Of a stretch of DNA of 64,000 nucleotides, positions 38,256 through 57,938 are shown one piece after another. The notes under the pieces were generated by a model that saw only the letters and a program-made list of their open reading frames with translations, was not told the origin of the DNA and did not search any database. The position numbers and the translations under genes were made by a program. This DNA is from Clostridiales bacterium (GTDB lineage Bacteria > Bacillota > Clostridia > Saccharofermentanales > Saccharofermentanaceae): contig JAFZQI010000045.1 in the NCBI GenBank assembly GCA_017620475.1, forward strand, positions 1 to 64,000. Direction: 5' to 3'. How positions within the stretch are numbered: position 1 is the stretch's first letter; every line of letters starts with the position of its first letter.

Positions 38256-39005
38256 TCACATCCCCTTGTTGTTAAGCTCCTGCTGTCTTTCCTTCGAAAG
38301 GCGTAATGTCTCCTTCATCCACGCCTTCGCGTATTCGGAATACTCCTTATCCACAGACTTCTCGACGCCGTCCAGTATCTCGGCCTCGCGCTGAGGAACA
38401 TATGTCGGAAGGCCACGCTCCGACTTGATCTTCGCAATTCTTTCCGAGTGCTTCATCCTCCGCTCGAAAAGCACCAGCATCTGGCGGTCGATCTCACTGA
38501 TCGCTTCCCTCTCCTCTATAAGAGGATCCTCATCCGAAGTGCCGTCGGCCGGTTCTTCGCTCGACGGATCCGCCATGTACTTCTCCACCAGTTTTTCCAT
38601 TGCCAGAAGATACCCCTTCACGCCCATACCGGAGATCTGCTCAACGCAGACCGCCTCGATCACGGAACGGTTCCGGAAATCCTCACGGTTATGGATATCG
38701 GAAAGATGTACCTCGACGACCGGGATCTTAATCAGTTCGATCGCATCCCGGATCGCAATGCTATAGTGTGTATATGCACCGGCATTCAGGACGATACCGT
38801 CCACCACGCCCATCGATGTATGAAGTTTCCTGATCATCGCGGACTCGGATTCCGACTGGAAGCACTGCACTTTCACGCCCAGTTCGATGCCTTTGTTAAT
38901 ACAGGCATTTTCCAGATCGGAAAGCGTACCGCTGCCGTAATGCTTCGGATCGCGTTTTCCGAGCATCGACAGATTCGGGCCGTTCATGATCAGTATCGTT
39001 TTCAT
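38256..39005 (-). CDS. aroQ: type II 3-dehydroquinate dehydratase fused to chorismate mutase
   Basis: Residues 1-145 are a type II dehydroquinase: [18 protein letters not shown] (Tyr23 as base), [10 protein letters not shown], and [11 protein letters not shown] with His100 and Arg111. Residues about 160-245 are an AroQ-class all-helical chorismate mutase ([32 protein letters not shown]). A charged linker joins them. The first domain makes 3-dehydroshikimate, the second converts chorismate to prephenate. It ends 4 nt before the cellulase start. Confidence 0.9.
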
Positions 39006-42771: not shown

Positions 42772-44238
42772 TCACGGCAGGAGCAGTTTCTTCATCCTAT
42801 CGAAAAGCACTTCCACCGGTTCAGCCGCCGGCAATATCACGTCGGATCCTTCCACGTAGGAAGCCTCCCGCGATTCCAGTCTCGCGCACATATTCCTGTA
42901 CGCGGTCTCCTTATCCGAAGCCTGAAGAAGCGGCCTGGTCGTATCGTCCTTGACCCGCTCCCAGATGGTATCCGCGTCCACCTTAAGGTAGATCACCACC
43001 GCCTTACTTTCAGAAAGAAGCACGCGGTTCTTTTCCTGCGTCAGTACGCCGCCGCCAAGGGAAATGACCTCGGAGCCCGGTGTCTCGAGCACGGCCCTAA
43101 GGACATCGTGCTCCATCCTGCGGAAGGTCTCTTCGCCGTCTTTTTTAAATATCTCGGTGATCGGGCAGCCCGCGATTTGAACGATCCGCTCATCGAGATC
43201 GAGGAACGGGATCTTCATGTCCTCGGCGATCCGTCTTCCGATGGTGGTCTTGCCCGCGCCCATGAACCCCGTCAGCACGATCTTCATGGGGTTCTTCTCC
43301 CAAAGTTTCTTTCTCACATCCGGCAGGATCGCTGCCAGTCTTTCGTCGTCAAAATGCGCGTCCGGCGCCCAGATCTTCTCGGCCGCGATGGCCTGATTAA
43401 GGAGCATCTTTAGGCCCGAAACCGCGGTTCCGCCCTTCACGGTTTCGTCGCCCTGTGCCCCCGCTCCGGATGTCATGCCGGCTCGAACCTGCATGCAGGA
43501 CTTCGTCGGACAGGGATTATAGATCGTATCGAAAAATGTGCCGCCTGGTGAAAGCAGATCAAGATGCGGTGCCACATCATGGACATTCGGCCACATGCCG
43601 CAGGGCGTGCCGTTTAATACGACGTCAAAAGTACTTGTCCCGGAACCGTCTTCGCCGCCTGTCATGGAAGCTGCCTCTGTCGCACCGGCCAATTCTCCGG
43701 CCGTTGCTTTGCCCGAGGCCGTTTCACCTGTGTCCGCATCCGTCACCACGCATACCTTCTCGTACCCCTTTTCCTTGCACTCATTCACAAGAGCCAGTGC
43801 TTTTTCCTCCGAACGGGCCCAAACCGAAAGATCCGCGCCGGCCTTCAGGGCTTCGATGGCCATCATGCGGGCCACGCCGCCGGCTCCGAGAAGAAGGACT
43901 TTCTTTCCCTTCATGGGGATATTGCAGGACAAAAAACCGTCCACATCCGTGTTATAGCCCACACGGCCGCAGACCGTATTCGCTGCGCCGTACTCCTTCA
44001 CCATCGGTGCGATGTCGTCGAGGAAAGGAAGGATGCTGACCTTATGCGGAATCGTGACATTAAAGCCCGTCAGATCACGCATCAGGATCGGCGCGTATTT
44101 CGGAAGCTCCTCCGGTGTGATTTCGTAGAGTTCGTATTTCCCGGAAATGCCGCTCGCCTCCATGATGCGCTCATGGATATACGGGGACATGGAATGCCCC
44201 AGCGGGCAGCCGATGAGGCCGGCCTTAATCACACTCAT
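42772..44238 (-). CDS. shikimate dehydrogenase fused to shikimate kinase
   Basis: Residues 1-290 are AroE: SPYIHE, NVTIPHK (Lys66), NTDVDG (Asp98) and the nucleotide loop LLLGAGGVARM. Residues about 318-488 are AroK: GFMGAGKTT, LDLDERI, TFRRME (the shikimate-binding Arg) and SLGGGVL. An extra Gly/Ala/Thr-rich segment sits near 170-205. The two halves catalyse consecutive steps from 3-dehydroshikimate to shikimate 3-phosphate. ATG 44238 has GGGAGG 6 nt upstream. It overlaps the tyrA stop by 14 nt. Confidence 0.9.
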   Translation of the reverse strand: MSVIKAGLIGCPLGHSMSPYIHERIMEASGISGKYELYEITPEELPKYAPILMRDLTGFNVTIPHKVSILPFLDDIAPMVKEYGAANTVCGRVGYNTDVDGFLSCNIPMKGKKVLLLGAGGVARMMAIEALKAGADLSVWARSEEKALALVNECKEKGYEKVCVVTDADTGETASGKATAGELAGATEAASMTGGEDGSGTSTFDVVLNGTPCGMWPNVHDVAPHLDLLSPGGTFFDTIYNPCPTKSCMQVRAGMTSGAGAQGDETVKGGTAVSGLKMLLNQAIAAEKIWAPDAHFDDERLAAILPDVRKKLWEKNPMKIVLTGFMGAGKTTIGRRIAEDMKIPFLDLDERIVQIAGCPITEIFKKDGEETFRRMEHDVLRAVLETPGSEVISLGGGVLTQEKNRVLLSESKAVVIYLKVDADTIWERVKDDTTRPLLQASDKETAYRNMCARLESREASYVEGSDVILPAAEPVEVLFDRMKKLLLP

Positions 44239-45319
44239 AACCGGCCTCCCGCAGAAGCGCATACGCCTCCACCACTTCTTTGGCAGTTCCGAGCAGAAGG
44301 CTCACCTGACCGCCCTCATACGTTCTGAAGTTGCGGATGTTGATATTACGGATATTGATATTGCCCTTCCCGAGAATGGCCGTGATACGGGCAAGTTCGC
44401 CGGGCTTATCGTCCACATACACCGTAAGTCCCGCCGATGCTTCCAAGGCCCCTCTCATGTTGCTGTCAAGGTGATCCCGGTAGCAGGCACCCTGTGTGAA
44501 GAGTTTCTCCAGGCCGCTTTCATTGTCCGCCGCAATCGTATTTCTCCATCGGGAAAGAAGATCGATATAGTCATCCAGTACGGGAAGCAGAGTTTCTTTG
44601 GAATTCTCCGTGATCCCTGCCCACAGCTTCGGATCGGAAGAAGCGATACGGGTGATATCCCGAAATCCTCCCGCCGCCATGCGTCCGAGGGCGCCATCGT
44701 CCTTCTCCGCAAGAAGAAGCGACAGGCTGCTGGCCACGATATGCGGAAGATGTGAAACCGCCGCTACGCGCATGTCATGCTCTTCCGCAGTCATATACAT
44801 CGGAATCGCACCGATCTTCCTGATCAATGCTTCAAGGCCCATCAGTTTCTGAACGGGGATCGAGGAGTCTTCAGGAAGACAGAGCACATAGAGGGCATTT
44901 TCAAAAAGAGAGCCACTGCTGCAGGCATAACCGTGACGTTCGGATCCCGCCATCGGGTGTCCGCCGATGAAGTTGGGAAGACAAATCGATTTCATCACCG
45001 GCCGTTTGACCGAACCGACATCCGTAATTACGCCGATATTCAGTGCCGCCAGTTCCGGCTCCATCTTCGTGATGGCATCGATCGGTGCACAAAGAATGAC
45101 CAGATCGCACCCTTCAAGAATCGAAAGGTCATCTGTGCTGAACTCCGTTATCGTTCCTTCTTTTCCGGCCAGCTCCCCGGCCTTCGGATCCGGGTCGATA
45201 CCCACGATCTCCTGCACATCCGTACGCTGCCGGATCGCCTTGGCCAAAGAGCCTCCGATCAGGCCCAGTCCAACGATTCCCGCCTTACGGATCCCCACAG
45301 GTTTTGCCTCTTCTATCAT
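44225..45319 (-). CDS. tyrA: prephenate dehydrogenase with C-terminal ACT domain
   Basis: The 364-residue protein makes 4-hydroxyphenylpyruvate from prephenate. It has the NAD motif GIVGLGLIGGSLAK, the GGHPMAGSERHG segment with a conserved His, and a C-terminal ACT domain (about 290-364), usually the tyrosine feedback site. I start at ATG 45319, which has GAGG 8 nt upstream, because the upstream in-frame ATG at 45352 overlaps the promoter's -10 box. Confidence 0.92.
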   Translation of the reverse strand: MIEEAKPVGIRKAGIVGLGLIGGSLAKAIRQRTDVQEIVGIDPDPKAGELAGKEGTITEFSTDDLSILEGCDLVILCAPIDAITKMEPELAALNIGVITDVGSVKRPVMKSICLPNFIGGHPMAGSERHGYACSSGSLFENALYVLCLPEDSSIPVQKLMGLEALIRKIGAIPMYMTAEEHDMRVAAVSHLPHIVASSLSLLLAEKDDGALGRMAAGGFRDITRIASSDPKLWAGITENSKETLLPVLDDYIDLLSRWRNTIAADNESGLEKLFTQGACYRDHLDSNMRGALEASAGLTVYVDDKPGELARITAILGKGNINIRNINIRNFRTYEGGQVSLLLGTAKEVVEAYALLREAGYECD

Positions 45320-45562: not shown

Positions 45563-47995
45563 TCACTGGCTTTCCTGCAGGATCACCATCACGCGGTTCT
45601 GGATCACCGCTGCCACATCGTCCACCGATTTTTGGCCGACGAAGTAGGCTGCCGCCTCTTCTTTTACCACGGCAAGGATGGCCGGATAGGTCGCGATCTT
45701 CCTGTCGATATGCTCGACCTGATCAATGAACTTCGTGATGTCAGCCTCCTCGATCGTCTCGACCGGCCGGACATGAGGATCACCCTGCATATCCTGCTTC
45801 ATCTTCTCCACTTCCTTAGCCTGTAGTTGGACCCGCTCATCCAAAGCGGCGCGGTTCACCGGGATTCCGAATCGCCCGCCCAGGGCCATCTGTGAGGTTT
45901 CCTCCAGAAGATACTTCACGAAGTCCCAGGCCTCCTCCTTGTGTTTCGAGAAGGATGAGATCGCAATCGACAAATTCGCCGTCGCGCCGAATCCCGAACC
46001 GGAAGAGGAAGGGTATCCCATGTAGGAGATCTTTCCCTGATTAAGGTTCCGGTAATCGGCGATTTCTCTTGCGCCATCGAGAAGATAGGTCACCATGACC
46101 CAGAGCCCCGCGTCTATACCGTCGAGGACCGGATCGCCTTCATAGTCATCACCCAGATCCTGCCGTTCCCTCTGCACTTCGCAGAGCTTCGCAATCTCAA
46201 GGAGCGATTTAAACTCGGGAGAATCGAACTTCGCTTCGCAGGAAGCATAGTCGACGAAGTAAGCGATATCGCTGCAGAGCATCTTCTCCATAAGACCCTC
46301 GGCCTTTTGGCTGAAGAACGCCGTCGTCCCATCCGGTAACTGCCGGACCACAGAAAGGAAATCCGAGTACGTCCAGCCGTACCGGCTCCCGCAGATATCC
46401 GAATTCCCGAGAAGGCCCTGACCCTGTACGAGCAGCGGCATCTGGAACAGTTTTCCGTCCGTTTCAAAAGCTCTGAACACGTTATCGAAGTACTGACTTC
46501 TTTCGATCCCGGATGTCCCGTCGACGAAAGGATTCAGATCGCAAAGGATCTCTTCGTTTTCGAACTCTCCGAAATCCGTGAAATTCATCAGGAGATCCGG
46601 ACCGGTTCCGGACTTCATGTCCAGAAAGATCTTGTACGCCATATCCGCATTTCCCGCATTGACGGGCATGACCGAGTTGACATCATCCCTCGTGTCATAG
46701 GTCATAACGCGGGCCTTGCCGTCCGGACGTTTGTTGTAATCGATCAGAAGATCGATGAGCGTGGAATCATAAAGACCGTAGGCACTCAGGTGAAGAAGTG
46801 TTTTTCCCGCATGGGGATTTGTTGCCGTCCTCTTAAAGTGCGTCACATAGGCACTTTCTTCGTCCGCCTCGATATCGTACTCATACTCCAGGAAACAAAT
46901 CTCCCCTTCCGAGATCATCTTGCACGTGTCAGTCTTCAGGTTATACCAGTTGATATCCGTCTCATTCCAGTTAATAACGGCTTCCATATCACCGGTCAGA
47001 AGATCCACCTTGACGATGCCGTTGGACCCGACTGCGAAACAGGCATTCTCGCCCTGGAAAACCGTATCCGGCACCTTCGACGAGATCTCGATCATATCGC
47101 CAATTGGGTTTCCTGTTGCTTCATCGATCTCCCGGATATAGCGTTTCACAGGATAGTCCCAGTCGTTGATGTAATATAGATAGATCTTCCCGTCTATGAA
47201 AAACGCATCATGAACCGACCCGTTCTGCATAGAAGAACGCTCGTCCGGGGCCAGACACCAGAGTTCTTTTCCGTTTTTATCCACAAGGATCACTGCACCC
47301 AAATTGGAAAGAAGGATATTCCCGGAAGGAAGGATCGTCGACTTACCGTTCCAGGAAGACAGATGATACTCCGTGTAGCTCAGCGGTTCTTTTCCGATCT
47401 GTTCTCCCTTGTCATTAAACATGAGGATATCCGCATAAAAACCATCACTCATCGTGATCTCGGTCATACCGAGATTCCCGTCCGCCGTTTCAAAAGCCAT
47501 GCCGGGCGAGGAATCCAGACTATCCACCAAAAGCGTGAACTGATATTCTCCGGACGCATTAAAGACGGCCAGACCCTGCTCGTAATAGTCCGAAGCGATC
47601 CTTACGAATTCATCGTATTCATCCGGGAACTTGATCTGATCAACCTGTTCCTGGACACCCGGCGGAAATTCGTACTTGCGATAGATCTCCTTCACGATGT
47701 ATTCTCCGACGAAGGCCGGTTCACCTACGGACCAATCCTCCTCAACTTTTTTCGAAGGATCCGATGGAACAGTAAGTTCCCATCTCTCCACGTCGTAATA
47801 GGGATCCTCAGGTTTCACGATATCTACCGTGTAGTCCACGTTGTTATTGGGATTATCCGGATCCATCGTCACACGCGTCGGCAGATCCGAAGGATTCGAT
47901 GAATCACCCGGATCCGACTTCTTACACGCACTTGTAAATACGATCGATACCGCTAGAAAAACACTGGCCAGCTGCCTTATCTTTCTATTCCCCAT
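45563..47995 (-). CDS. large solute-binding lipoprotein with N-terminal repeat-rich domain
   Basis: The 810-residue product has a lipoprotein signal (VFTSAC, Cys24). The N-terminal 380 residues are beta-rich and repeat-like (a beta-propeller is a guess), and residues about 400-780 resemble ABC solute-binding proteins (MKSGTGPDLLMNF, FSKHKEEAWDFVKYLLEE). Such proteins usually feed sugar importers, but no permease is adjacent. GGGGG lies 7 nt before the ATG. Confidence 0.8.
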   Translation of the reverse strand: MGNRKIRQLASVFLAVSIVFTSACKKSDPGDSSNPSDLPTRVTMDPDNPNNNVDYTVDIVKPEDPYYDVERWELTVPSDPSKKVEEDWSVGEPAFVGEYIVKEIYRKYEFPPGVQEQVDQIKFPDEYDEFVRIASDYYEQGLAVFNASGEYQFTLLVDSLDSSPGMAFETADGNLGMTEITMSDGFYADILMFNDKGEQIGKEPLSYTEYHLSSWNGKSTILPSGNILLSNLGAVILVDKNGKELWCLAPDERSSMQNGSVHDAFFIDGKIYLYYINDWDYPVKRYIREIDEATGNPIGDMIEISSKVPDTVFQGENACFAVGSNGIVKVDLLTGDMEAVINWNETDINWYNLKTDTCKMISEGEICFLEYEYDIEADEESAYVTHFKRTATNPHAGKTLLHLSAYGLYDSTLIDLLIDYNKRPDGKARVMTYDTRDDVNSVMPVNAGNADMAYKIFLDMKSGTGPDLLMNFTDFGEFENEEILCDLNPFVDGTSGIERSQYFDNVFRAFETDGKLFQMPLLVQGQGLLGNSDICGSRYGWTYSDFLSVVRQLPDGTTAFFSQKAEGLMEKMLCSDIAYFVDYASCEAKFDSPEFKSLLEIAKLCEVQRERQDLGDDYEGDPVLDGIDAGLWVMVTYLLDGAREIADYRNLNQGKISYMGYPSSSGSGFGATANLSIAISSFSKHKEEAWDFVKYLLEETSQMALGGRFGIPVNRAALDERVQLQAKEVEKMKQDMQGDPHVRPVETIEEADITKFIDQVEHIDRKIATYPAILAVVKEEAAAYFVGQKSVDDVAAVIQNRVMVILQESQ

Positions 47996-48113: not shown

Positions 48114-50543
48114 TCAGCCCCGCTCGTTGATCACCGTTGCCGTCCGGTTCTGGATATTCTTCGCCACATCCGCCGCTGAGCGGTTCCCGAGGATATAGCC
48201 CTCGGCTTCTTCCTTGATCAGAAGGAACACCGTCTTGTCAAAACCTCTGACAGATTGGATGTTTTCCAGAAGTGCAATCGCCCGTTCGACCGTTTTTTCA
48301 TCAAGCTGCGGAAGACTTGTGAGATATTCCTGCATATATCCGACACCCATATTTTCCATCGATTCCCTATAAAGGTCAACCTGATGGCGGAGCACCTCTT
48401 CACAGGCCTTTCGGTGGACCGGGAATCCTTCGACCGCATCCGCACATTCTTCCTGCGTCGGCTGGTCAAAAAGGAATTTCACGAAATCCCATGCTTCTTT
48501 CTGGTAAGCGGAAGAATTGGAGATGCCGATACTCAAGTTATACTCGACCGAGAATCCTCCTTTTTCATTTCCGGGACAGCCGATGAATTCGACATTTCCG
48601 TCATTTACCGCATCGAACTGGGCAAATTCCAGAAGATGGGTCAGTCTTCCGAATGCTCCGGCCGTCATACCTTCCTGCATGAAGTGGACGTCGGGATTGG
48701 TACCCATATAGAAATCCGCGACCGTGCTCTCGAAGATTTCTCCTTCGGATCTGGATGAACCCAGTTCTTTTACGGCTTCCAGGATGTTCAGAAACTTCGG
48801 GTCATCGAAGTGGACCGCTTTATTCTCGTAATCGATAAAGGTCCTTCCCTCTCCATAGATAAGCGTTTCCAGAAGCTGTGCCCAGTTTTTCTCCGGGATC
48901 ATGGTCATGCCGTTGGGAAGGCTTTTGGAAATAGACAGCAGATCCTCATAGTTCCATGTTGTTTTTCCATTAGCATACTGCTTATCGATAACCATTCCAT
49001 AAGCAATGAAATTGGCCGGGATCTGATAAAGGTGTCCGTCCTTTTCACATGCACGGAAAATATGATCGAAGTAGTCATCGCGATTCAGTCCGTTCTCTCC
49101 GTCGATAAACGCATTCAGGTCACAAAGGACCTTCTCGTTATCAAACTGGCTGTACTCACCGAAATTGATAAGGATATCCGGTCCCGCTCCGGAAAGCATA
49201 TCCAGATAGACCTTATCGACTGTCTGGGAAACGATCTCCGCTTCGCTCAGATCCTCCGGAGGGAAGGGTGTCGACATGATCGAGTAGTCCACATACTCGA
49301 TCCGGATATCTTTACTTGCATCCAGATTATAATCGACGATCCGGTCCATCAGCACATTGGGGATCATCGCTGAATTTATCGGCGCGGCCACGGTGAGGAT
49401 CTTCTTTCCGGCATGCGGATTCTTCTCCTCTTTAGTAAGTTTGACAAGATAGTTCCGGGGCTGCCCGCTTGTTTCAAAGTACGGATCATCGCCGGTCGTG
49501 AGACTTCTGACGAAATACAGTTCATCCTCTGAACGGACATATAAGGCGCTGATCCCGTTACGGTTCACATCCAGGTCGTTCCAGGAAAAGAGCGTTTTCG
49601 TTGTCGTTCTTCCTACGATATCGACCTTTTCCATACCGTTTCCGTAGAGATAATAGATACCGTCATTCCCCTGCGAGAAAGAAAGTCCGTCTGATTCGAT
49701 CCGCTGACTTCCGAGTTTTCCGGAAGAAAGATCAAACTCGCGTAAGCAATCGGCGCTTATGCCGTCCTCCGCATCCGGAAGCCACAGCAAAATATAGTAT
49801 TTTCCGTCCTGATGAAAGAGTCCCTGAATCACTTCCCCCTCAGTGACCCGGTCGGTTACGATGCATTTTCCCGACGCATCAAAGAGCATGACATCACTCC
49901 AGCCGACGCAGAGGAATCCGCCATCTTCCGTCATCGCGATATCGCTGAACATGCAGTCCTTGCAGTCCAAGTCGAAAAGCTTTACCAGTTCACCCGAGTC
50001 GGTCACTTCTACGATCGAGTACGTCATGATCCAATCCGGAGCCTGGCCGTAATTTTCAAGAAGTGCCAGGAGCTTCCCGTCTTTTCTTTCGAACATCTTA
50101 GTAACTGAAGGGCTTCCCGGCCCGCCATAAGGGATCGTACAGCGGATACTTCCGTCCAGGTTATAAACGATCACGCCGCTGTCCGAATAACGGGCAAACT
50201 CATTCATGAGCCTCTCGCCATCTTCCTCAGAATAGCTCAAAGGATTCATGATGTATTTCTGATACTCTTCCTGAAGCTCTGCCGGTATCACATACGTGAT
50301 ATCATAACTGGTGGTCACGCATGAACTTAGAGCCGTAAACCTGCCCATCATAGCCGAATCCAAAACCAGATCCGGATCCGCCTTCGGAATGGGAAGTTCG
50401 ATCTGTTCGGCACGATAGTACGGATCGCTTTCCTGAACCGTTTTCACGGCCTTTCCCGATTTCTTCTTCGAGCACGCTACCGACGGCATTATCAAACTGA
50501 AGCAAAGGATACCTGCAGATATGCATTTGAGCGTTTTTTTCAT
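48114..50543 (-). CDS. large solute-binding lipoprotein, paralogue
   Basis: The 809-residue product has a signal peptide and a lipobox VAC near residue 24. Its N-terminal half is like that of the gene at 45563, and the C-terminal half (about 380-770) resembles solute-binding proteins (MLSGAGPDILINF, YQKEAWDFVKFLFD). The two genes look like diverged duplicates. The start at ATG 50543 has GGAG 7 nt upstream; the in-frame region upstream is not used. It ends 118 nt before its neighbour begins. Confidence 0.8.
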   Translation of the reverse strand: MKKTLKCISAGILCFSLIMPSVACSKKKSGKAVKTVQESDPYYRAEQIELPIPKADPDLVLDSAMMGRFTALSSCVTTSYDITYVIPAELQEEYQKYIMNPLSYSEEDGERLMNEFARYSDSGVIVYNLDGSIRCTIPYGGPGSPSVTKMFERKDGKLLALLENYGQAPDWIMTYSIVEVTDSGELVKLFDLDCKDCMFSDIAMTEDGGFLCVGWSDVMLFDASGKCIVTDRVTEGEVIQGLFHQDGKYYILLWLPDAEDGISADCLREFDLSSGKLGSQRIESDGLSFSQGNDGIYYLYGNGMEKVDIVGRTTTKTLFSWNDLDVNRNGISALYVRSEDELYFVRSLTTGDDPYFETSGQPRNYLVKLTKEEKNPHAGKKILTVAAPINSAMIPNVLMDRIVDYNLDASKDIRIEYVDYSIMSTPFPPEDLSEAEIVSQTVDKVYLDMLSGAGPDILINFGEYSQFDNEKVLCDLNAFIDGENGLNRDDYFDHIFRACEKDGHLYQIPANFIAYGMVIDKQYANGKTTWNYEDLLSISKSLPNGMTMIPEKNWAQLLETLIYGEGRTFIDYENKAVHFDDPKFLNILEAVKELGSSRSEGEIFESTVADFYMGTNPDVHFMQEGMTAGAFGRLTHLLEFAQFDAVNDGNVEFIGCPGNEKGGFSVEYNLSIGISNSSAYQKEAWDFVKFLFDQPTQEECADAVEGFPVHRKACEEVLRHQVDLYRESMENMGVGYMQEYLTSLPQLDEKTVERAIALLENIQSVRGFDKTVFLLIKEEAEGYILGNRSAADVAKNIQNRTATVINERG

Positions 50544-50586
50544 GACTCTTCTCCCCGATCCATTCATGAATTTCCATTGTAATTTC

Positions 50587-50630
50587 ATTATATAGACCCT
50601 ACATCAAGGAAAAATGACGTATGCGTCATT
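50587..50630 (-). promoter_or_regulatory. promoter and palindromic operator of the second solute-binding gene
   Basis: A minus-strand TATAAT sits at 50587-50592 about 44 nt before the start codon. The -35 region at 50610-50615 (ATTTTT) is poor but overlaps a perfect palindrome: AATGACG (50613-50619), TATG, CGTCATT (50624-50630). A regulator probably binds here. Confidence 0.55.
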
Positions 50631-51799: not shown

Positions 51800-52951
51800 T
51801 TATTCCGGCTGGATGTCGATAATGCAGTACTCGGAAACCGTTCCGCTCTTATACGGAATCGCCCAGTCCGCGATACCTGAAGTCACGATAAATGTCGTAT
51901 TGTCTTTGACCTTCAGTCCGTAAGTTGCATCGTTCGCACCGAGGAGATCGCTCAGAATTCCGACCGGGAACATCTGTCCGCCATGGGTATGTCCGCTCAG
52001 GACCAGATCGCACCCCGCCTGCGCCTCGGCCGCATAGTCGTTCGGCTGATGGTCCAGCACGATGGTGTAATAGGCGGGCTGGATAAACATCAGGAGACGG
52101 TCGATCGTCATGCGTTCCATACTGCGGTCATTGCGCCCGACAAGATAATACTTATCCGCAATCAGGACGGACTCATCCTCAAGGACGGTCACATCGTTCT
52201 TCCGAAGTTCCGAAAGCAGATCGTCATACGAGAAGCCGCGGTTATCGCTATACCCGGCATCGTGATTTCCGGGCACATAATACACGCCGTAGGTCGTATT
52301 CATTTCTCCGAGTGCCGCACAGCTTCTCACCATATCCGTTTTACTGGTGTCGTCATCTACAAAATCACCGGCGATAACAAGGATATCCGGATGCTGCTCC
52401 TCGATCGTTTTCATGTGTTCGGCAAAGCCGTTTCCGTCAAAACAGGCACCGACATGCGAATCCGCAATCAGCGCGACGCGCAGCGGCGGCACATCTTTGT
52501 CGGTCTTGATCGTGTACTCGGTCTTACACACATGCACCGCCAGATAGTAGCAGACCGCCATGTAGATCACCGTCAGAAGCATCGCCAGAATACCCGCCAT
52601 CCAGAAAGGAACCGTCTTCTCTTGCGGACGTTTTCTCTCATTTTGTTCTTTCGCATCATTCTTCCGAACGACCCATTCCACAAACTTCATCAATTGTTCC
52701 AGCAAAGCCCAGAAAACGATCAAGTGAAGTACCGGCACGATAAGAATATAGGGCCACACCACACAGCCGAGGATCAGAAGGATCATGACCGCAGCCGCGG
52801 CTCCCGTCGCCACAGAACGCTTTTTCTTCGGAACATCCTCTGTTTTTTCCCCGAGAAGGAAAAGCCTTCTGAAACGGGAAAACAAATACGCAAGCCCCAC
52901 GATAAGGAGGATCGCCAGAACCGCTATTAAGATGAAAAACCAATGCATCAT
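51800..52951 (-). CDS. membrane-bound metallophosphoesterase, YkuE-like
   Basis: The 383-residue protein has about four N-terminal helices (about 4-24, 46-66, 68-88, 116-140) and a C-terminal calcineurin-like phosphoesterase: ADSHVG, AGDFVDDD, GNHDAG and SGHTHGGQ, which give a two-metal site. The position of the catalytic domain relative to the membrane is uncertain but may be outside. It starts 1 nt after the FeS gene stops. Confidence 0.85.
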   Translation of the reverse strand: MMHWFFILIAVLAILLIVGLAYLFSRFRRLFLLGEKTEDVPKKKRSVATGAAAAVMILLILGCVVWPYILIVPVLHLIVFWALLEQLMKFVEWVVRKNDAKEQNERKRPQEKTVPFWMAGILAMLLTVIYMAVCYYLAVHVCKTEYTIKTDKDVPPLRVALIADSHVGACFDGNGFAEHMKTIEEQHPDILVIAGDFVDDDTSKTDMVRSCAALGEMNTTYGVYYVPGNHDAGYSDNRGFSYDDLLSELRKNDVTVLEDESVLIADKYYLVGRNDRSMERMTIDRLLMFIQPAYYTIVLDHQPNDYAAEAQAGCDLVLSGHTHGGQMFPVGILSDLLGANDATYGLKVKDNTTFIVTSGIADWAIPYKSGTVSEYCIIDIQPE

Positions 52952-52952
52952 G

Positions 52953-53849
52953 TTAACTCTCTTTTCTTTCAGCAGAAACGGCAGCCGTATTGCCCCGTAT
53001 ACCCATCACCAGTGCCCCCGTCGGACAGCTACGCAGGCAGTCCCCGCATCGGACACACTCCATGCTGTTGGGGATCTTTGACGGATCGATGTTCATTTTA
53101 CATGCTTTCGCGCATGCATGGCAATCCACACACTTTCCCGTATCCAGGTGCATTCTGTAAAGGGCGAACCGGTTAAAGAATCCGTAGAAAGCACCCAGCG
53201 GGCAGAGATATCTGCAAAAGGGCCTCCATACGATCAGTCCGGAAACAAGAATAATCAGAAGAACGATCAGTTTCCAGTGAAAAAGAGCTGCCATCTGCGG
53301 GCGTATCGACTTATTAACGATCGCCATCAGAATGCCGGAGATCGTTCCCGACGGACAGACATATTTGCAGAACGTCGGCGTCAGCGGAATGCATAGCGGC
53401 AGGATGATCACCAGAACCAGAAGCACAGCATACTTCAGGTATCTCAAATACTTGTCCAGGAAGAACTTGTTCTTCTTGAAAAAAGGGATCAGATAGATCA
53501 GGTCCTGCAGAAATCCGAACGGGCAAAGAAGCCCGCATACGGCTCTTCCCAAAAGCGCGCCGGCAAACAGCAGAATACCCAGAACATAGTACGGGAAACG
53601 GAAAGTCCTGGCACTTAGGAAACTCTGCAGCGAACCGACCGGACAGGCGCTTACCGCTCCCGGACAGGAGTAACAGTTTAGTCCCGGCACGCAGACTTTC
53701 TTCGTCGCACCCGTATAGATCTTTCCGGTAAAGAATCCCTTGAAGTTGGCATTCTGAATCAGTACCGCCACAGCCTGGATCCCCATATGGACGCCCTTGC
53801 CGGATCGTATGGATGGTTTTTCTTTCGATGATCTATCCAATTCCGACAC
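52953..53849 (-). CDS. 4Fe-4S membrane protein, NapH/NosR-like
   Basis: The 298-residue protein has about five helices and many cysteine motifs: CYSC, CGLLCPFG, CKYVCPSG, CRYLCPLG and two ferredoxin CxxCxxCxxxC(P/K) clusters (VDCHACAKAC and VRCGDCLRSC). This is the plan of NapH/YccM-type electron transfer proteins that take electrons from membrane quinol. The start at 53849 (GTG) overlaps the CD1871A stop by 17 nt; an ATG further in (near residue 22) is an alternative. Confidence 0.85.
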   Translation of the reverse strand: MSELDRSSKEKPSIRSGKGVHMGIQAVAVLIQNANFKGFFTGKIYTGATKKVCVPGLNCYSCPGAVSACPVGSLQSFLSARTFRFPYYVLGILLFAGALLGRAVCGLLCPFGFLQDLIYLIPFFKKNKFFLDKYLRYLKYAVLLVLVIILPLCIPLTPTFCKYVCPSGTISGILMAIVNKSIRPQMAALFHWKLIVLLIILVSGLIVWRPFCRYLCPLGAFYGFFNRFALYRMHLDTGKCVDCHACAKACKMNIDPSKIPNSMECVRCGDCLRSCPTGALVMGIRGNTAAVSAERKES

Positions 53850-53988
53850 ACTCCATACAGATCCGGATAGCTTTAGTCAGCACGGATCTCTCCTGCCCGA
53901 GAACGACCCCGGTCACGATCAGCGCAGCGGCTGCAAGAATCAGCACCACGGCAACAATATTCTTCTTTTTTTCGGTTAATCTCTTCAT
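53833..53988 (-). CDS. CD1871A family CXXC membrane miniprotein
   Basis: A 51-residue protein with one membrane helix (about 11-32) and a C-terminal IRICMECVGIG motif. This is the short CD1871A family, named from Clostridioides difficile, where its gene sits between a thioredoxin-like protein and a 4Fe-4S protein. Here it has the same neighbours. Its role is unknown; the two cysteines suggest a redox or metal function. The start at 53988 has a GAGAG site; longer in-frame extensions exist. Confidence 0.8.
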   Translation of the reverse strand: MKRLTEKKKNIVAVVLILAAAALIVTGVVLGQERSVLTKAIRICMECVGIG

Positions 53989-54081
53989 AGACAACTCTCG
54001 TGTCTTCGCCTGCACAGCACGCGGGTACAGCTTATACATGGAACTGCAGCACCATATTGAAAGCTGCATGTCCTGATGTTC

Positions 54082-54705
54082 TCAGATGTACTGCTTGATG
54101 ATCTGCATCCATCCGTTATAGTCTTTACTGCCAACGACCGTCTTCTCCCCGTCAGACATATCGATGACATGCCCGTTCTGATCCACAAAGATCGTCGTCG
54201 GAACATATCCCGTCTGAAACGGGTCAAATGCACTTGTATAGAAACAGATCGGATACGTGATCCCGGCATCTGCAAGGACAGATTCCACATCCTCTTCCAT
54301 TCCTTCCGTCGAATACACGCCGATGATTGCAAATCCCTGATCCTTGTACTCTTCGTAGATCTTTTCCAGTTCGGGCATCTCCTCGACGCACGGTCCGCAC
54401 CAGGGCTCCCAGAAGTTGATCATGGTCAATTTGTTCTCGGCAAAAACACTCTCGCTGATCTGGTTTCCGTCTCTGTCCGTAATGGAGAACGTGATCTCCG
54501 GCTGGAAATCTCCGTTAACTGTTTGGGGAGCTTCTGTCGTTTCTTTTGTTGTGTCCGTCTCTTCATCGGAAGTGTCTTCCACTTCTTCCGTAGTTTTCTT
54601 CGTAACCTTCTTTTTCTTTTTCGTTTCTTCCTTCTTGCTGCAGCCGGCGCCGACACTCACCACCAGCATCATCGCAGCCATCAGAAGCGCCATTCTTTTC
54701 TTCAT
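54082..54705 (-). CDS. TlpA-like thioredoxin-fold lipoprotein
   Basis: The 207-residue product has a lipoprotein signal ending in VGAGC (Cys22), a long Lys/Glu/Thr linker (about 24-62) and a TlpA-type thioredoxin domain with WCGPC near residue 100. The Pro in VPTTIFVD is the cis-proline. It should reduce disulfides on the outer face of the membrane. It is 14 nt after the GH43 gene and 93 nt before the CD1871A gene. Confidence 0.88.
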   Translation of the reverse strand: MKKRMALLMAAMMLVVSVGAGCSKKEETKKKKKVTKKTTEEVEDTSDEETDTTKETTEAPQTVNGDFQPEITFSITDRDGNQISESVFAENKLTMINFWEPWCGPCVEEMPELEKIYEEYKDQGFAIIGVYSTEGMEEDVESVLADAGITYPICFYTSAFDPFQTGYVPTTIFVDQNGHVIDMSDGEKTVVGSKDYNGWMQIIKQYI

Positions 54706-54719
54706 AGAGTTTCTCCTTT

Positions 54720-56390
54720 TTATTCTTTTTCCCCGGGAAAGAACCGGAAGTCCGAAAACCCCGCTTTCCCTTCTGTGACCTTCGTCGAATACATAAAAAG
54801 CCCGAATCTCGCTCCGGTAAAATGGTCCAACCGGAATCGGAGCTTATGCGGTTTCCCGATATTTTGCCACGACCCGTCCCGATCGGTCAAGCAGACCGCC
54901 TCATCTTTTTCATTTTCGAAAAGCACTTCCATCCGGACTTTCACCGGTTCATCATCTTTTCCGCTGACCCGCAGCACCTGTGCTTCTCTCTCTTCCAGCT
55001 TCGTTCCGGCAACCGGACTTAGATCCCAAGGTCCCTCTTCACTTTTATGCCCGTACATAACCTCGAAGAGTTTTCCGTCACGCCGTTCGACCCCGACCCA
55101 GCAATAATCGCCCTGTAGCGCCACAAGCCCTGCACAGTCGCCCTCCGAAAGGTGTGCGCAGTCGATCGTGACTTCCGCGGCACAGGACGGATATATCATC
55201 CTCTGGGTGATCGTATTTTTGGCATGGTTGATATTCAGGCTCAGTTTGTCTGAGGTGATCCAGAACTTCCCGCTTTGTTCATCCCGATAAACCAGGCGGA
55301 GGTCCGGCTCATGATTGAACTGCCAGAAGCTCCGCATCCCGAAACATCCGAACTTCCTTTTGAAATCCGGAGAGAAATCCTCCCGAAGTCCCTCTTCCCA
55401 GGTGAATCCATACTTGAAATCATCGCTTCCCGCAAGCGGTGCATACCCGTCCTCACACGTTTCGTGAAGCAAGGGATCGCACGCTTCTTCTGCCACGAGG
55501 CAGGCATCCGACACGGGAAGAGTAAGTTCCGAAGGAGCCTTCCCGTCGATTCCGAATACGGGGCGATCGTCTTCCCATGTCATCGGCACGACCACGGGGA
55601 TACGCCCGATTGCACCGCTGTCCTGGAAAAGCACGGCGTTCCATACTCCGTCTGCTCCGCAGACGATACCGCCTTGCGCGATGCCGGAATTCCGAAATCC
55701 CATATCGTCATTAAACACATCACCGCCCGTAAAATCACCCTCCAGGGAGTCGGATGAAAAACATGCTTCCACACGCCGCCATTTCTCTTCCAGAGAATGG
55801 ATCATAAAAAGATAGTACCGCCCGTTGATTTTATATAGGTGGGAACCCTCATAGCCCAGAGGCGTCTTCTCCGAATCCTGAAGGAGAAGACGATTCAGTC
55901 CTCCCTCCTTCGGACCGCGAAGATCCGCATCCAATTCCGTCAGATAGATCTGCCGGTTGCCATACACCACATAGACCCGATCGTCATCGTCGAAAAGAAG
56001 CGAACAGTCGTGGTAAAAACCGGATATCTCGCTTTTGCGCCAGGGACCTTCGATCTTCTCTGCCCGGTACAGATATGTCTTTTGGGTATCGTTGCACACG
56101 AAGGCCACATAGAATGTCCCCTTGTGATAGCGGAGACTGGCCGCCCACATCCCCTTGCCGTACACGTATTTATCTTCCTGCAGGCACTGCGCCGGAGTAC
56201 TGTCCAAAAGGTCAAAGACATATGCCGCATGCTCCCAGTTTAGAAGATCGTAAGAACGAAGGATCTGTCCTCCCGGAAGAAAATGCATTGTAGTGGAGAT
56301 CATGTAATATACGCCATCGGCAAAGATAATATCCGGATCCGGGAAATCCATTCTTAAGATGGGATTGCTTCCGGTACTCATTCTACCCAT
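54720..56390 (-). CDS. GH43 glycoside hydrolase, probably xylosidase or arabinofuranosidase
   Basis: The 556-residue product has the GH43 five-bladed propeller: the base Asp is in FPDPDIIFADG, the second Asp in YHDCSLLFDDD, and the acid Glu in YEGSHLYKING. A C-terminal beta-sandwich (about 345-550) is typical of the intracellular subfamily. There is no signal peptide, so it should act on imported oligosaccharides. The start is uncertain; ATG 56390 has AAGG 7 nt upstream, while ATG 56396 and 56381 are alternatives. Confidence 0.87.
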   Translation of the reverse strand: MGRMSTGSNPILRMDFPDPDIIFADGVYYMISTTMHFLPGGQILRSYDLLNWEHAAYVFDLLDSTPAQCLQEDKYVYGKGMWAASLRYHKGTFYVAFVCNDTQKTYLYRAEKIEGPWRKSEISGFYHDCSLLFDDDDRVYVVYGNRQIYLTELDADLRGPKEGGLNRLLLQDSEKTPLGYEGSHLYKINGRYYLFMIHSLEEKWRRVEACFSSDSLEGDFTGGDVFNDDMGFRNSGIAQGGIVCGADGVWNAVLFQDSGAIGRIPVVVPMTWEDDRPVFGIDGKAPSELTLPVSDACLVAEEACDPLLHETCEDGYAPLAGSDDFKYGFTWEEGLREDFSPDFKRKFGCFGMRSFWQFNHEPDLRLVYRDEQSGKFWITSDKLSLNINHAKNTITQRMIYPSCAAEVTIDCAHLSEGDCAGLVALQGDYCWVGVERRDGKLFEVMYGHKSEEGPWDLSPVAGTKLEEREAQVLRVSGKDDEPVKVRMEVLFENEKDEAVCLTDRDGSWQNIGKPHKLRFRLDHFTGARFGLFMYSTKVTEGKAGFSDFRFFPGEKE

Positions 56391-56438
56391 ATACATGCCT
56401 TTCTGCTTCTAATCAAGCCGCGTATGCTTCATACACTG

Positions 56439-57020: not shown

Positions 57021-57350
57021 TTACAGTTCTCCGATATGTTCCTGTCCGATCTCCAGGATCGACTTAACATGTCCGTCTGCCAATTCGTAGCAGATCGCCT
57101 TCCCTGCGCGGGTACTCTTGACCAGTTTATTCTGCTTAAGGATCTTCAGCTGATGGGACACCGCCGATTGATTCATTTCCAGTTCGCTTGCCAGATCTCC
57201 CACACAGAGCGATCCCTGCATAAGCGCATATAAGATACGGATACGCGTTGAATCTCCGAACACTTTAAAGAGATCAGCCAGATCGTAGAGCTGCTCCTCC
57301 ATCTTCTTATTTTCCGTCTTCTTGGTTGTTTTCGGCATGATCGTTACCAT
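57021..57350 (-). CDS. ArsR-family zinc-sensing repressor
   Basis: The 109-residue product is a winged-helix repressor (QSAVSHQLKILKQNKLVKS). Its last helix has the alpha-5 metal motif DxH-x10-H-xx-E (DGHVKSILEIGQEHIGE), typical of zinc sensors CzrA/SmtB. Regulated metal transporters are not adjacent; its neighbours are mnmM and the shikimate kinase-like gene. It overlaps the end of the latter by 44 nt. The start is uncertain between 57350 and 57338. Confidence 0.85.
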   Translation of the reverse strand: MVTIMPKTTKKTENKKMEEQLYDLADLFKVFGDSTRIRILYALMQGSLCVGDLASELEMNQSAVSHQLKILKQNKLVKSTRAGKAICYELADGHVKSILEIGQEHIGEL

Positions 57351-57894
57351 CCTTCCTTATCAGAGGTCTTTCCTGTTCTTCTTCCTCCGGATCACCGTTA
57401 AGCACCGCCAGTATCCTTCGGGCCACGACCTTCGGCGTGGTATGGAAGGTCCGGATACGGATGTCCGCATATCTCATATAAAGCGGTTTTCTCTCACGGT
57501 ATACGCTGGCAATCGTCTGGTTCGGTGCCAGGACCACTCCGCGTTTCTTCGGATCGCCCATCCTTCTTCGAAGCATAGGAAGATCCGTTTCCAGATAGAT
57601 CACCGTCGCAACGGAATTCAGATACATCATGCCATACTGGCAGAATACGGCACTTCCTCCCGTTGCCACGACCTTCGGAGTATTATCCAAAGACAGAAGA
57701 GCCTTCTCCTCTGCAGAAAGGAAATACTCCATTCCCTTCTCCTGCTGGATCTTCTCCAGCGGCATTCCTTCTTCTTCACGTATCAGATTATCCGTATCGA
57801 TGAAGGGTACTTCCAGTTCCTGAGCAAGGATCCGGCCGATCGTGGTCTTCCCACATCCGGGCATACCTATGAGGACGATCATTTTGTCCAACAT
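57307..57894 (-). CDS. shikimate kinase-like P-loop kinase
   Basis: The 195-residue product has Walker A GMPGCGKTT, DTDNLI and a TGGSAVF segment. The lid end is RERKPLYMRYADIRI. Compared with true shikimate kinases the FRxxE motif reads FLSAEE, so the substrate-binding Arg is missing, and GGG reads GGS. The real shikimate kinase is fused to AroE at 42772. This paralogue may use another substrate. The start at 57894 has GGAGG 6 nt upstream. Confidence 0.8.
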   Translation of the reverse strand: MLDKMIVLIGMPGCGKTTIGRILAQELEVPFIDTDNLIREEEGMPLEKIQQEKGMEYFLSAEEKALLSLDNTPKVVATGGSAVFCQYGMMYLNSVATVIYLETDLPMLRRRMGDPKKRGVVLAPNQTIASVYRERKPLYMRYADIRIRTFHTTPKVVARRILAVLNGDPEEEEQERPLIRKDGNDHAENNQEDGK

Positions 57895-57938
57895 AGTATC
57901 CCTCCTTTCCGGCCGATTCACTTGCGCATTCTATTACT

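Follow-up and report, generated by a model that had tools for sequence, protein, structure and literature searches.

The DNA analysed here, referred to as the window, is a stretch of 64,000 nucleotides from a Clostridiales bacterium of the family Saccharofermentanaceae (GenBank assembly GCA_017620475.1, contig JAFZQI010000045.1, positions 1 to 64,000). It carries a row of five genes on the minus strand, and the middle three, which encode a TlpA-like lipoprotein, a very small CxxC protein and a membrane iron-sulfur protein, are the subject of this report. As judged from sequence comparison, these three genes probably specify an outward transmembrane thiol-reducing pathway, namely an iron-sulfur-based stand-in for CcdA. 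The five genes are as follows.

54720-56396, minus strand: GH43 glycosidase with a GH43_C2 domain (PF04616, 116 bits)
54082-54705, minus strand: TlpA/ResA-like lipoprotein of 207 amino acids with a WCGPC active site (PF00578, 57.8 bits; lipobox cysteine recognized by eye)
53833-53988, minus strand: CD1871A family protein of 51 amino acids (NF040920, 50.6 bits against a cut-off of 32)
52953-53849, minus strand: NapH-like (Fer4_5) membrane iron-sulfur protein, hereafter FeS, of 298 amino acids (PF12801, 68.4 bits)
51800-52951, minus strand: calcineurin-like metallophosphoesterase with N-terminal membrane helices recognized by eye (PF00149, 57.8 bits)

The original prediction had described this row with gaps of 14, 93, −17 and 1 nucleotides (nt); this description was correct, and the family searches confirmed all of the names. 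The gap of −17 nt, the overlap between the CD1871A and FeS genes, depends on a putative GTG start codon of FeS at 53849. In several homologues, the first usable start of FeS is located 3′ of the CD1871A stop codon, and the window FeS may also start later. A consensus scan gave 6 promoter-like sites as compared with 9.0 in shuffled sequences (fewer) and 14 terminator-like sites as compared with 9.2 (somewhat more); the scan is therefore uninformative on the transcripts.

The three middle genes are referred to as the module hereafter. The 51-residue protein has a Lys/Arg-rich N-terminal end, one membrane helix (by eye) and the C-terminal sequence CMECVGIG, which contains the CxxC motif. With this motif and a score over the cut-off, it is a member of the NCBIfam family NF040920, whose name states no function. 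The TlpA protein has the domain, the CxxC and the conserved proline of TlpA/ResA-type thioredoxin-like lipoproteins. Its best match in the PDB is ResA (1e-15), and pneumococcal Etrx2 (4hqz, 2yp6) was matched at 1e-10; the score for ResA itself was under the cut-off (NF002854, 79.3 vs 170 bits). C103, C106 and P169 of TlpA are invariant in 30 aligned homologues (alignment A3), none of which has the TGA codon described below. Finally, FeS belongs to the Fer4_5 NapH-like superfamily, as PF12801 matches three stretches of it (68.4 bits vs a gathering threshold of 22) and Fer4 was also matched (38.3 vs 21.1 bits), and it misses the cut-offs for NapH proper (NF007013, 51.7 vs 234 bits; TIGR02163, 64.2 vs 213 bits).

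The conservation of the module was examined in two genome samples scanned with NF040920, which have 15 genomes in common. In the class sample of 291 genomes, 45 had a match, 43 of them over the curated cut-off; all 45 matches outside the window, from 44 genomes (one with two), were fetched. In the phylum sample of 398 genomes, 60 had a match (45 over the cut-off), 57 of which were new relative to the class set, and all 57 loci were fetched. Each fetched stretch extended up to 5 kb on each side, or less at contig ends. The CxxC motif is kept in 44 class loci, i.e., 43 fetched loci (one with TGA) and the window, and these and the 57 phylum loci constitute the 101 loci referred to below. In addition, we used 80 named loci, which are the best 80 of 591 found through FeS and the nearest to the window.

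A striking regularity was found in the pairing of CD1871A with FeS. The FeS gene lies directly 3′ of the CD1871A gene, often overlapping it, in all of the 44 class loci, as judged by reading all frames rather than from greedy gene calls. It is also found 3′ of CD1871A in 57 of 57 phylum loci, 2.2 kb off in one (L152) and nearer in the others. All 57 phylum CD1871A proteins keep the CxxC, including a divergent group reading CLSCIGIQ or CASCIGLR; thus, the case that the original prediction had named as telling against it, CxxC cysteines that are not conserved, was not encountered in the 101 loci with FeS. The same pairing was seen from the side of FeS. A profile made from 40 of the 44 class FeS proteins (alignment A1, with the contig-cut L051 and three longer or fused proteins, L064, L067 and L071, left out) matched 46 of the 291 class genomes at E ≤ 1e-40, at most 8 candidates being scored in each genome. 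Its 44 strong matches are the 43 genomes with CD1871A over the cut-off and one genome (G270) whose contigs break at the gene pair, and the two weak matches (about 1e-52) are in genomes with no CD1871A match. Among the 80 named loci, CD1871A lies directly 5′ of FeS in 76 and 3′ of it in 3, and is degenerate in 1. The class hits L075 and L076, which were under the cut-off, do not have the cysteines and were excluded from the 44. The CD1871A-like protein of L075 has SLHY for the CxxC, no FeS is located nearby, and the TlpA there is only a weak match (1e-5); in L076, TlpA is present and no FeS is within reach, the contig ending 174 nt further on. For the alignment of CD1871A (A2), L051, L060 and L076 were left out. 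CD1871A and FeS are almost inseparable, and their pairing is beyond chance.

The third gene is less strictly linked. A TlpA-like gene was found in 82 of the 101 loci and in 72 of the 80 named loci, and this, with the FeS pairing in 44/44 and 57/57 loci, bears out the earlier claim that the trio is conserved. The position of TlpA varies: in the 44 class loci, it is 5′ of CD1871A in 21 and 3′ of FeS in 16, and none was found in 7. FeS is fused to TlpA in L064 and L067, two loci from the same family: a single open reading frame (ORF) encodes FeS, a helix that by eye spans the membrane, and the TlpA domain. CD1871A there forms the C-terminus of a separate, multi-helix membrane protein.

FeS has two sets of cysteines. 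The C-terminal ferredoxin domain contains eight, in two 4Fe-4S motifs, and ten others are located outside this domain (positions 53, 59, 62, 69, 105, 109, 161, 165, 212 and 216). In the main group, which comprises 160 of the 181 proteins, all 18 show no variation or almost none. The mean numbers of lysine plus arginine versus aspartate plus glutamate are 4.0 vs 0.5 in residues 41-86 (46 residues), 4.5 vs 1.2 in 105-131, 2.4 vs 2.0 in 154-183 and 3.5 vs 0.02 in 207-232. From these values and an AlphaFold2 model (pLDDT 82.6), it may be tentatively inferred that the ferredoxin domain and the pairs 105/109 and 212/216 are on the cytoplasmic side, with cysteines 53-69 and 161/165 on the outside. 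Such a topology would provide a ladder from the cytosolic clusters to an outer six-cysteine group next to the CxxC of CD1871A. In structural searches, the whole FeS model gave convincing matches to ferredoxin domains only. The membrane part had no Foldseek match at E ≤ 0.001, with the whole or the membrane-only model, and no VIA match of Z ≥ 2; these searches thus met no relative of solved structure, a result that does not show a new fold.

The codon usage at the active sites provides a clue to the chemistry. Of the 82 TlpA genes, 22 have TGA in place of the first Cys codon of the active-site CxxC; flanking homology was seen on both sides in 16 of these, and the profile match is the main basis for the remaining six. 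A contrast within one genus was seen, as the TlpA gene of L048 has TGA and those of L041 and L049 have Cys. In a single case (L060), the first Cys codon of the CD1871A CxxC is also TGA. SelB was found over the cut-off in 22 of 23 TGA genomes as compared with 21 of the 48 remaining module genomes that were tested, and the lone TGA genome without it (G455) is about 90% complete. The window genome has no SelB match over the cut-off. The combination of TGA and SelB points to thiol catalysis by selenocysteine, and selenocysteine at the predicted reactive positions of two module proteins would be the best sequence evidence that both of them do thiol chemistry.

We also examined the relation of the module to CcdA/DsbD, called as a PF02683 (DsbD_TM) match at E ≤ 1e-8. 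In the class, 14 of 44 module genomes had CcdA/DsbD, as compared with 133 of the remaining 247 genomes (Fisher p 0.009); the corresponding figures for the phylum are 13 of 60 and 249 of 338 (Fisher p 3e-14). A similar tendency is seen within families: in f93, CcdA occurs in 1 of 5 module genomes and in five genomes without the module, and in f106, it occurs in 0 of 4 module genomes and in two others. The window genome (81.6% complete) has no PF02683 match at the above threshold, CcdA is absent from all seven sampled relatives in the window's family, and the module proteins of the window do not match PF02683 even at E ≤ 0.01. The module seems, on these comparisons, to stand in for CcdA/DsbD. 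Genes for menaquinone synthesis were searched for in the class module genomes: in the 44 of these, the window's included and some of them incomplete, MenD over the cut-off was found in none (4 weak matches were below it), and MqnC was likewise found in none.

The proposed pathway would work as follows. A cytosolic reductant, most likely ferredoxin, would reduce the C-terminal 2×[4Fe-4S] domain of FeS, and the electrons would cross the membrane via clusters or cysteine pairs formed by the ten other conserved cysteines. FeS would then pass them to the extracytoplasmic CxxC of CD1871A, CD1871A to the surface lipoprotein TlpA, and TlpA to disulfides or oxidised residues of surface proteins.

Several observations weigh against this reading. 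One group concerns CcdA: the p values ignore phylogeny, with the 15 shared genomes counted in both samples, and 14 class and 13 phylum genomes carry both the module and CcdA/DsbD. The sampled module genomes of f81, f113 and f149 have CcdA as a rule, as do 2 of 3 in f99, and three of the seven sampled relatives in the window's family (G200, G241 and G260) have neither the module nor CcdA. Another group concerns the TGA codons. The TlpA genes found in the 80 named loci, 72 in number, are all free of this TGA, as is that of the window, and the trait therefore lies away from the window's own kin; moreover, the SECIS-like hairpin 3′ of the CD1871A TGA in L060 is no better than shuffles (z −1.2). 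The last concerns the partners: no TlpA was found in the fetched stretch of 19 of the 101 loci, and of the 21 divergent FeS proteins, 18 have Pro in column 53 and 8 lack Cys 161. In all five Pro-53 proteins examined, a Cys is found close to column 53, and Cys 275 is absent in one of the 21.

The main rival, which we regard as rather unlikely, is that the CD1871A CxxC is no thiol carrier and instead ligates or shields an iron-sulfur cluster, so that FeS reduces TlpA directly. It would account for the retention of CD1871A with FeS in the 19 loci where no TlpA was found nearby, and the fixation of the motif at the very C-terminus near the membrane helix is in keeping with it. So is the occurrence of FeS-TlpA fusions together with the lack of any CD1871A-FeS fusion, none of the latter being seen because, in the loci examined, the CD1871A frame runs on for no more than a few residues after the motif. 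On the other hand, the TGA codon for the first CxxC cysteine in L060, whose genome has SelB, suits a redox nucleophile better, single case as it is.

Less likely again is a pathway running inward, in which TlpA would oxidise surface thiols and the electrons would reach a cytosolic acceptor by way of CD1871A and FeS, in the manner of DsbA/DsbB with quinones. The same parts would permit such a flow, and anaerobes living without quinones or oxygen need a sink for disulfide formation. Nevertheless, ResA is the closest match of the window TlpA, which is also related to the Etrx reductants, and CcdA/DsbD, which the module apparently replaces, is a reducing system.

That FeS acts as a NapH-type quinol dehydrogenase and supplies an extracytoplasmic acceptor is very improbable. 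Its membership of the Fer4_5 superfamily and the 64 bits for the NapH-like profile TIGR02163, below the cut-off, favor this role, and NapH-like systems with flavins have been described (PMC8238504, in the part available). However, the results for MenD and MqnC given above, which hold for 44 of 44 class module genomes, make such a role unlikely there, and no FMN-binding Pfam match was obtained in the ten window proteins scanned, FeS included.

We consider it hardly credible that all five genes form one functional cluster combining sugar hydrolysis, phosphoester cleavage and redox chemistry, the tight spacing at both ends (14 and 1 nt) notwithstanding, since neither the GH43 glycosidase nor the phosphoesterase had a match in the 45 other class loci (greedy, incomplete gene calls) or by tblastn in 84 loci that included the nearest relatives, save a GH43 gene more than 2 kb away in L230. 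The search for these neighbours covered the class loci and the 84 tblastn loci. Because they were not seen beside the module in the loci checked, the two genes are taken as chance neighbours. Thus, of the membrane redox relay proposed in the original prediction, the redox module is supported by the CxxC, the CD1871A-FeS linkage, TlpA, the fusions, the TGA codons and the CcdA avoidance, and the inclusion of the glycosidase and phosphoesterase is dropped, as they are not beside the trio in the relatives checked.

FTR hands electrons from ferredoxin to thioredoxin via an iron-sulfur centre next to a disulfide, and FTR and FFTR are soluble and cytosolic. The outward pathway could be regarded, as a tentative extension that we hold with less confidence than the pathway itself, as a membrane-embedded ferredoxin:thioredoxin reductase: iron-sulfur centres, in place of quinones or the cysteine pairs of DsbD/CcdA, would take the electrons across the membrane, the tiny protein with its C-terminal CxxC or UxxC would turn one-electron into two-electron chemistry, sometimes with selenocysteine, and CcdA would be replaced in many quinone-free anaerobes. 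The likeness to FTR and FFTR (for FFTR, the available part of PMC10880999) lies in the transfer of ferredoxin electrons to thioredoxin, and the difference is that the module would work across the membrane. Neither TlpA nor CcdA is mentioned by name in the main text of that paper, which deals with Clostridia thioredoxins.

As for the known membrane systems, the pneumococcal CcdA-Etrx1/Etrx2-MsrAB2 pathway has been shown by others (sections of PMC3914529). The module would resemble it and the DsbD of Gram-negatives in that a membrane protein supplies electrons to a TlpA-type surface lipoprotein; the difference is that a cysteine-pair protein does so there, and a Fer4_5 FeS with the 51-residue CxxC protein would do so here. 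In L043, a surface MsrAB-type lipoprotein gene is located 1.5 kb downstream of the module TlpA, as in pneumococcal etrx1-msrAB2, its ORF beginning about 3.5 kb 3′ of CD1871A. MsrA/MsrB motifs occur near the module in only this one of 182 loci, which gives no support to MsrAB as a general client. NapH, NosR and PceC share with FeS the Fer4_5 membrane part with CxxxCP motifs (PMC5928378 and PMC8238504, in part), and NapH and NosR also share the C-terminal 2×[4Fe-4S] domain, which PceC, as far as these sources go, does not have. Unlike them, FeS has three CxxxCP motifs and an extra N-terminal CVPGLNCYSCPGAVSACP motif. The relevant part of PMC5928378 assigns no function to the CX3CP motifs of RdhC/PceC. 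NapH-like and DsbD systems have both been tied to flavins (PMC8238504, same part); the module differs from the flavinylated NapH-like systems described there in that FeS has no FMN domain, the class genomes tested have no menaquinone genes, and the partners are CD1871A and TlpA.

The trio itself has appeared in one preprint. A three-gene operon of 4Fe-4S, TlpA and CxxC genes, evidently the same trio as in the window, was assembled from gut Clostridia and described in November 2025, where it is reported as a marker in stool of the immune side effects seen with melanoma therapy. Its authors suggest for it a redox role of a general kind and the reduction of extracellular or surface targets (available sections of PMC12637426). 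These sections contain no analysis of selenocysteine, fusions, CcdA or quinones. Our literature search, mostly outside subscription journals, met this one preprint on the trio and no paper on its mechanism; nor did it meet any account of the TGA codons, of the fusions, of a near-perfect pairing of CD1871A with FeS, of CcdA avoidance or of the missing quinone genes.

The spread of the module was also surveyed. C. difficile CD18710 is listed within a conjugative transposon (PMC12772354, in part), and CD1871A would, to judge from its name, lie within the same element. At E ≤ 1e-20, matches were found in 1 of 72,556 plasmid records and in 3 unannotated phage-labelled records, so that no strong link of the module to mobile elements was obtained. 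The plasmid record, of Peptoclostridium acidaminophilum (L244), has annotated, overlapping CD1871A and 4Fe-4S genes, with a TlpA gene 1.5 kb upstream behind an opposite-strand MFS gene. An FeS homologue is found on an unverified phage-labelled faecal scaffold (L245, MT836098), possibly a bacterial fragment. Four loci (L202, L209, L229 and L243) carry the module on contigs labelled Treponema, e.g., Treponema berlinense, or Spirochaetales, which suggests transfer out of the Firmicutes.

Several further observations concern the surroundings of the module. Just upstream of it in L042, L043, L047 and L052, a two-component system (by eye) is transcribed away from it and might regulate it, and ABC-transporter genes are neighbours in some module loci. 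Elsewhere in the window, two long lipoprotein-like genes, alike in build by eye, are adjacent (45563-47995 and 48114-50588), the latter with a C-terminal solute-binding domain (PF01547). The window also carries, by eye, a dehydroquinase-chorismate mutase gene (38256-39005) and a shikimate dehydrogenase-shikimate kinase gene (42772-44262), and in addition a further shikimate-kinase-like gene (57307-57921) that adjoins ArsR and MnmM and scores 160 bits with NF040667, under the cut-off of 197.

If the proposed pathway is true, it would bear on how strict anaerobes that have neither CcdA nor quinones keep their surface proteins reduced, offer a genetic handle in gut Clostridia and name a job for the CD1871A family. 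It would also suggest what the CxxxCP motifs in NapH-like proteins may do, and it would provide a mechanism for the operon that the preprint, in its available sections, ties to the side effects of cancer immunotherapy (PMC12637426).

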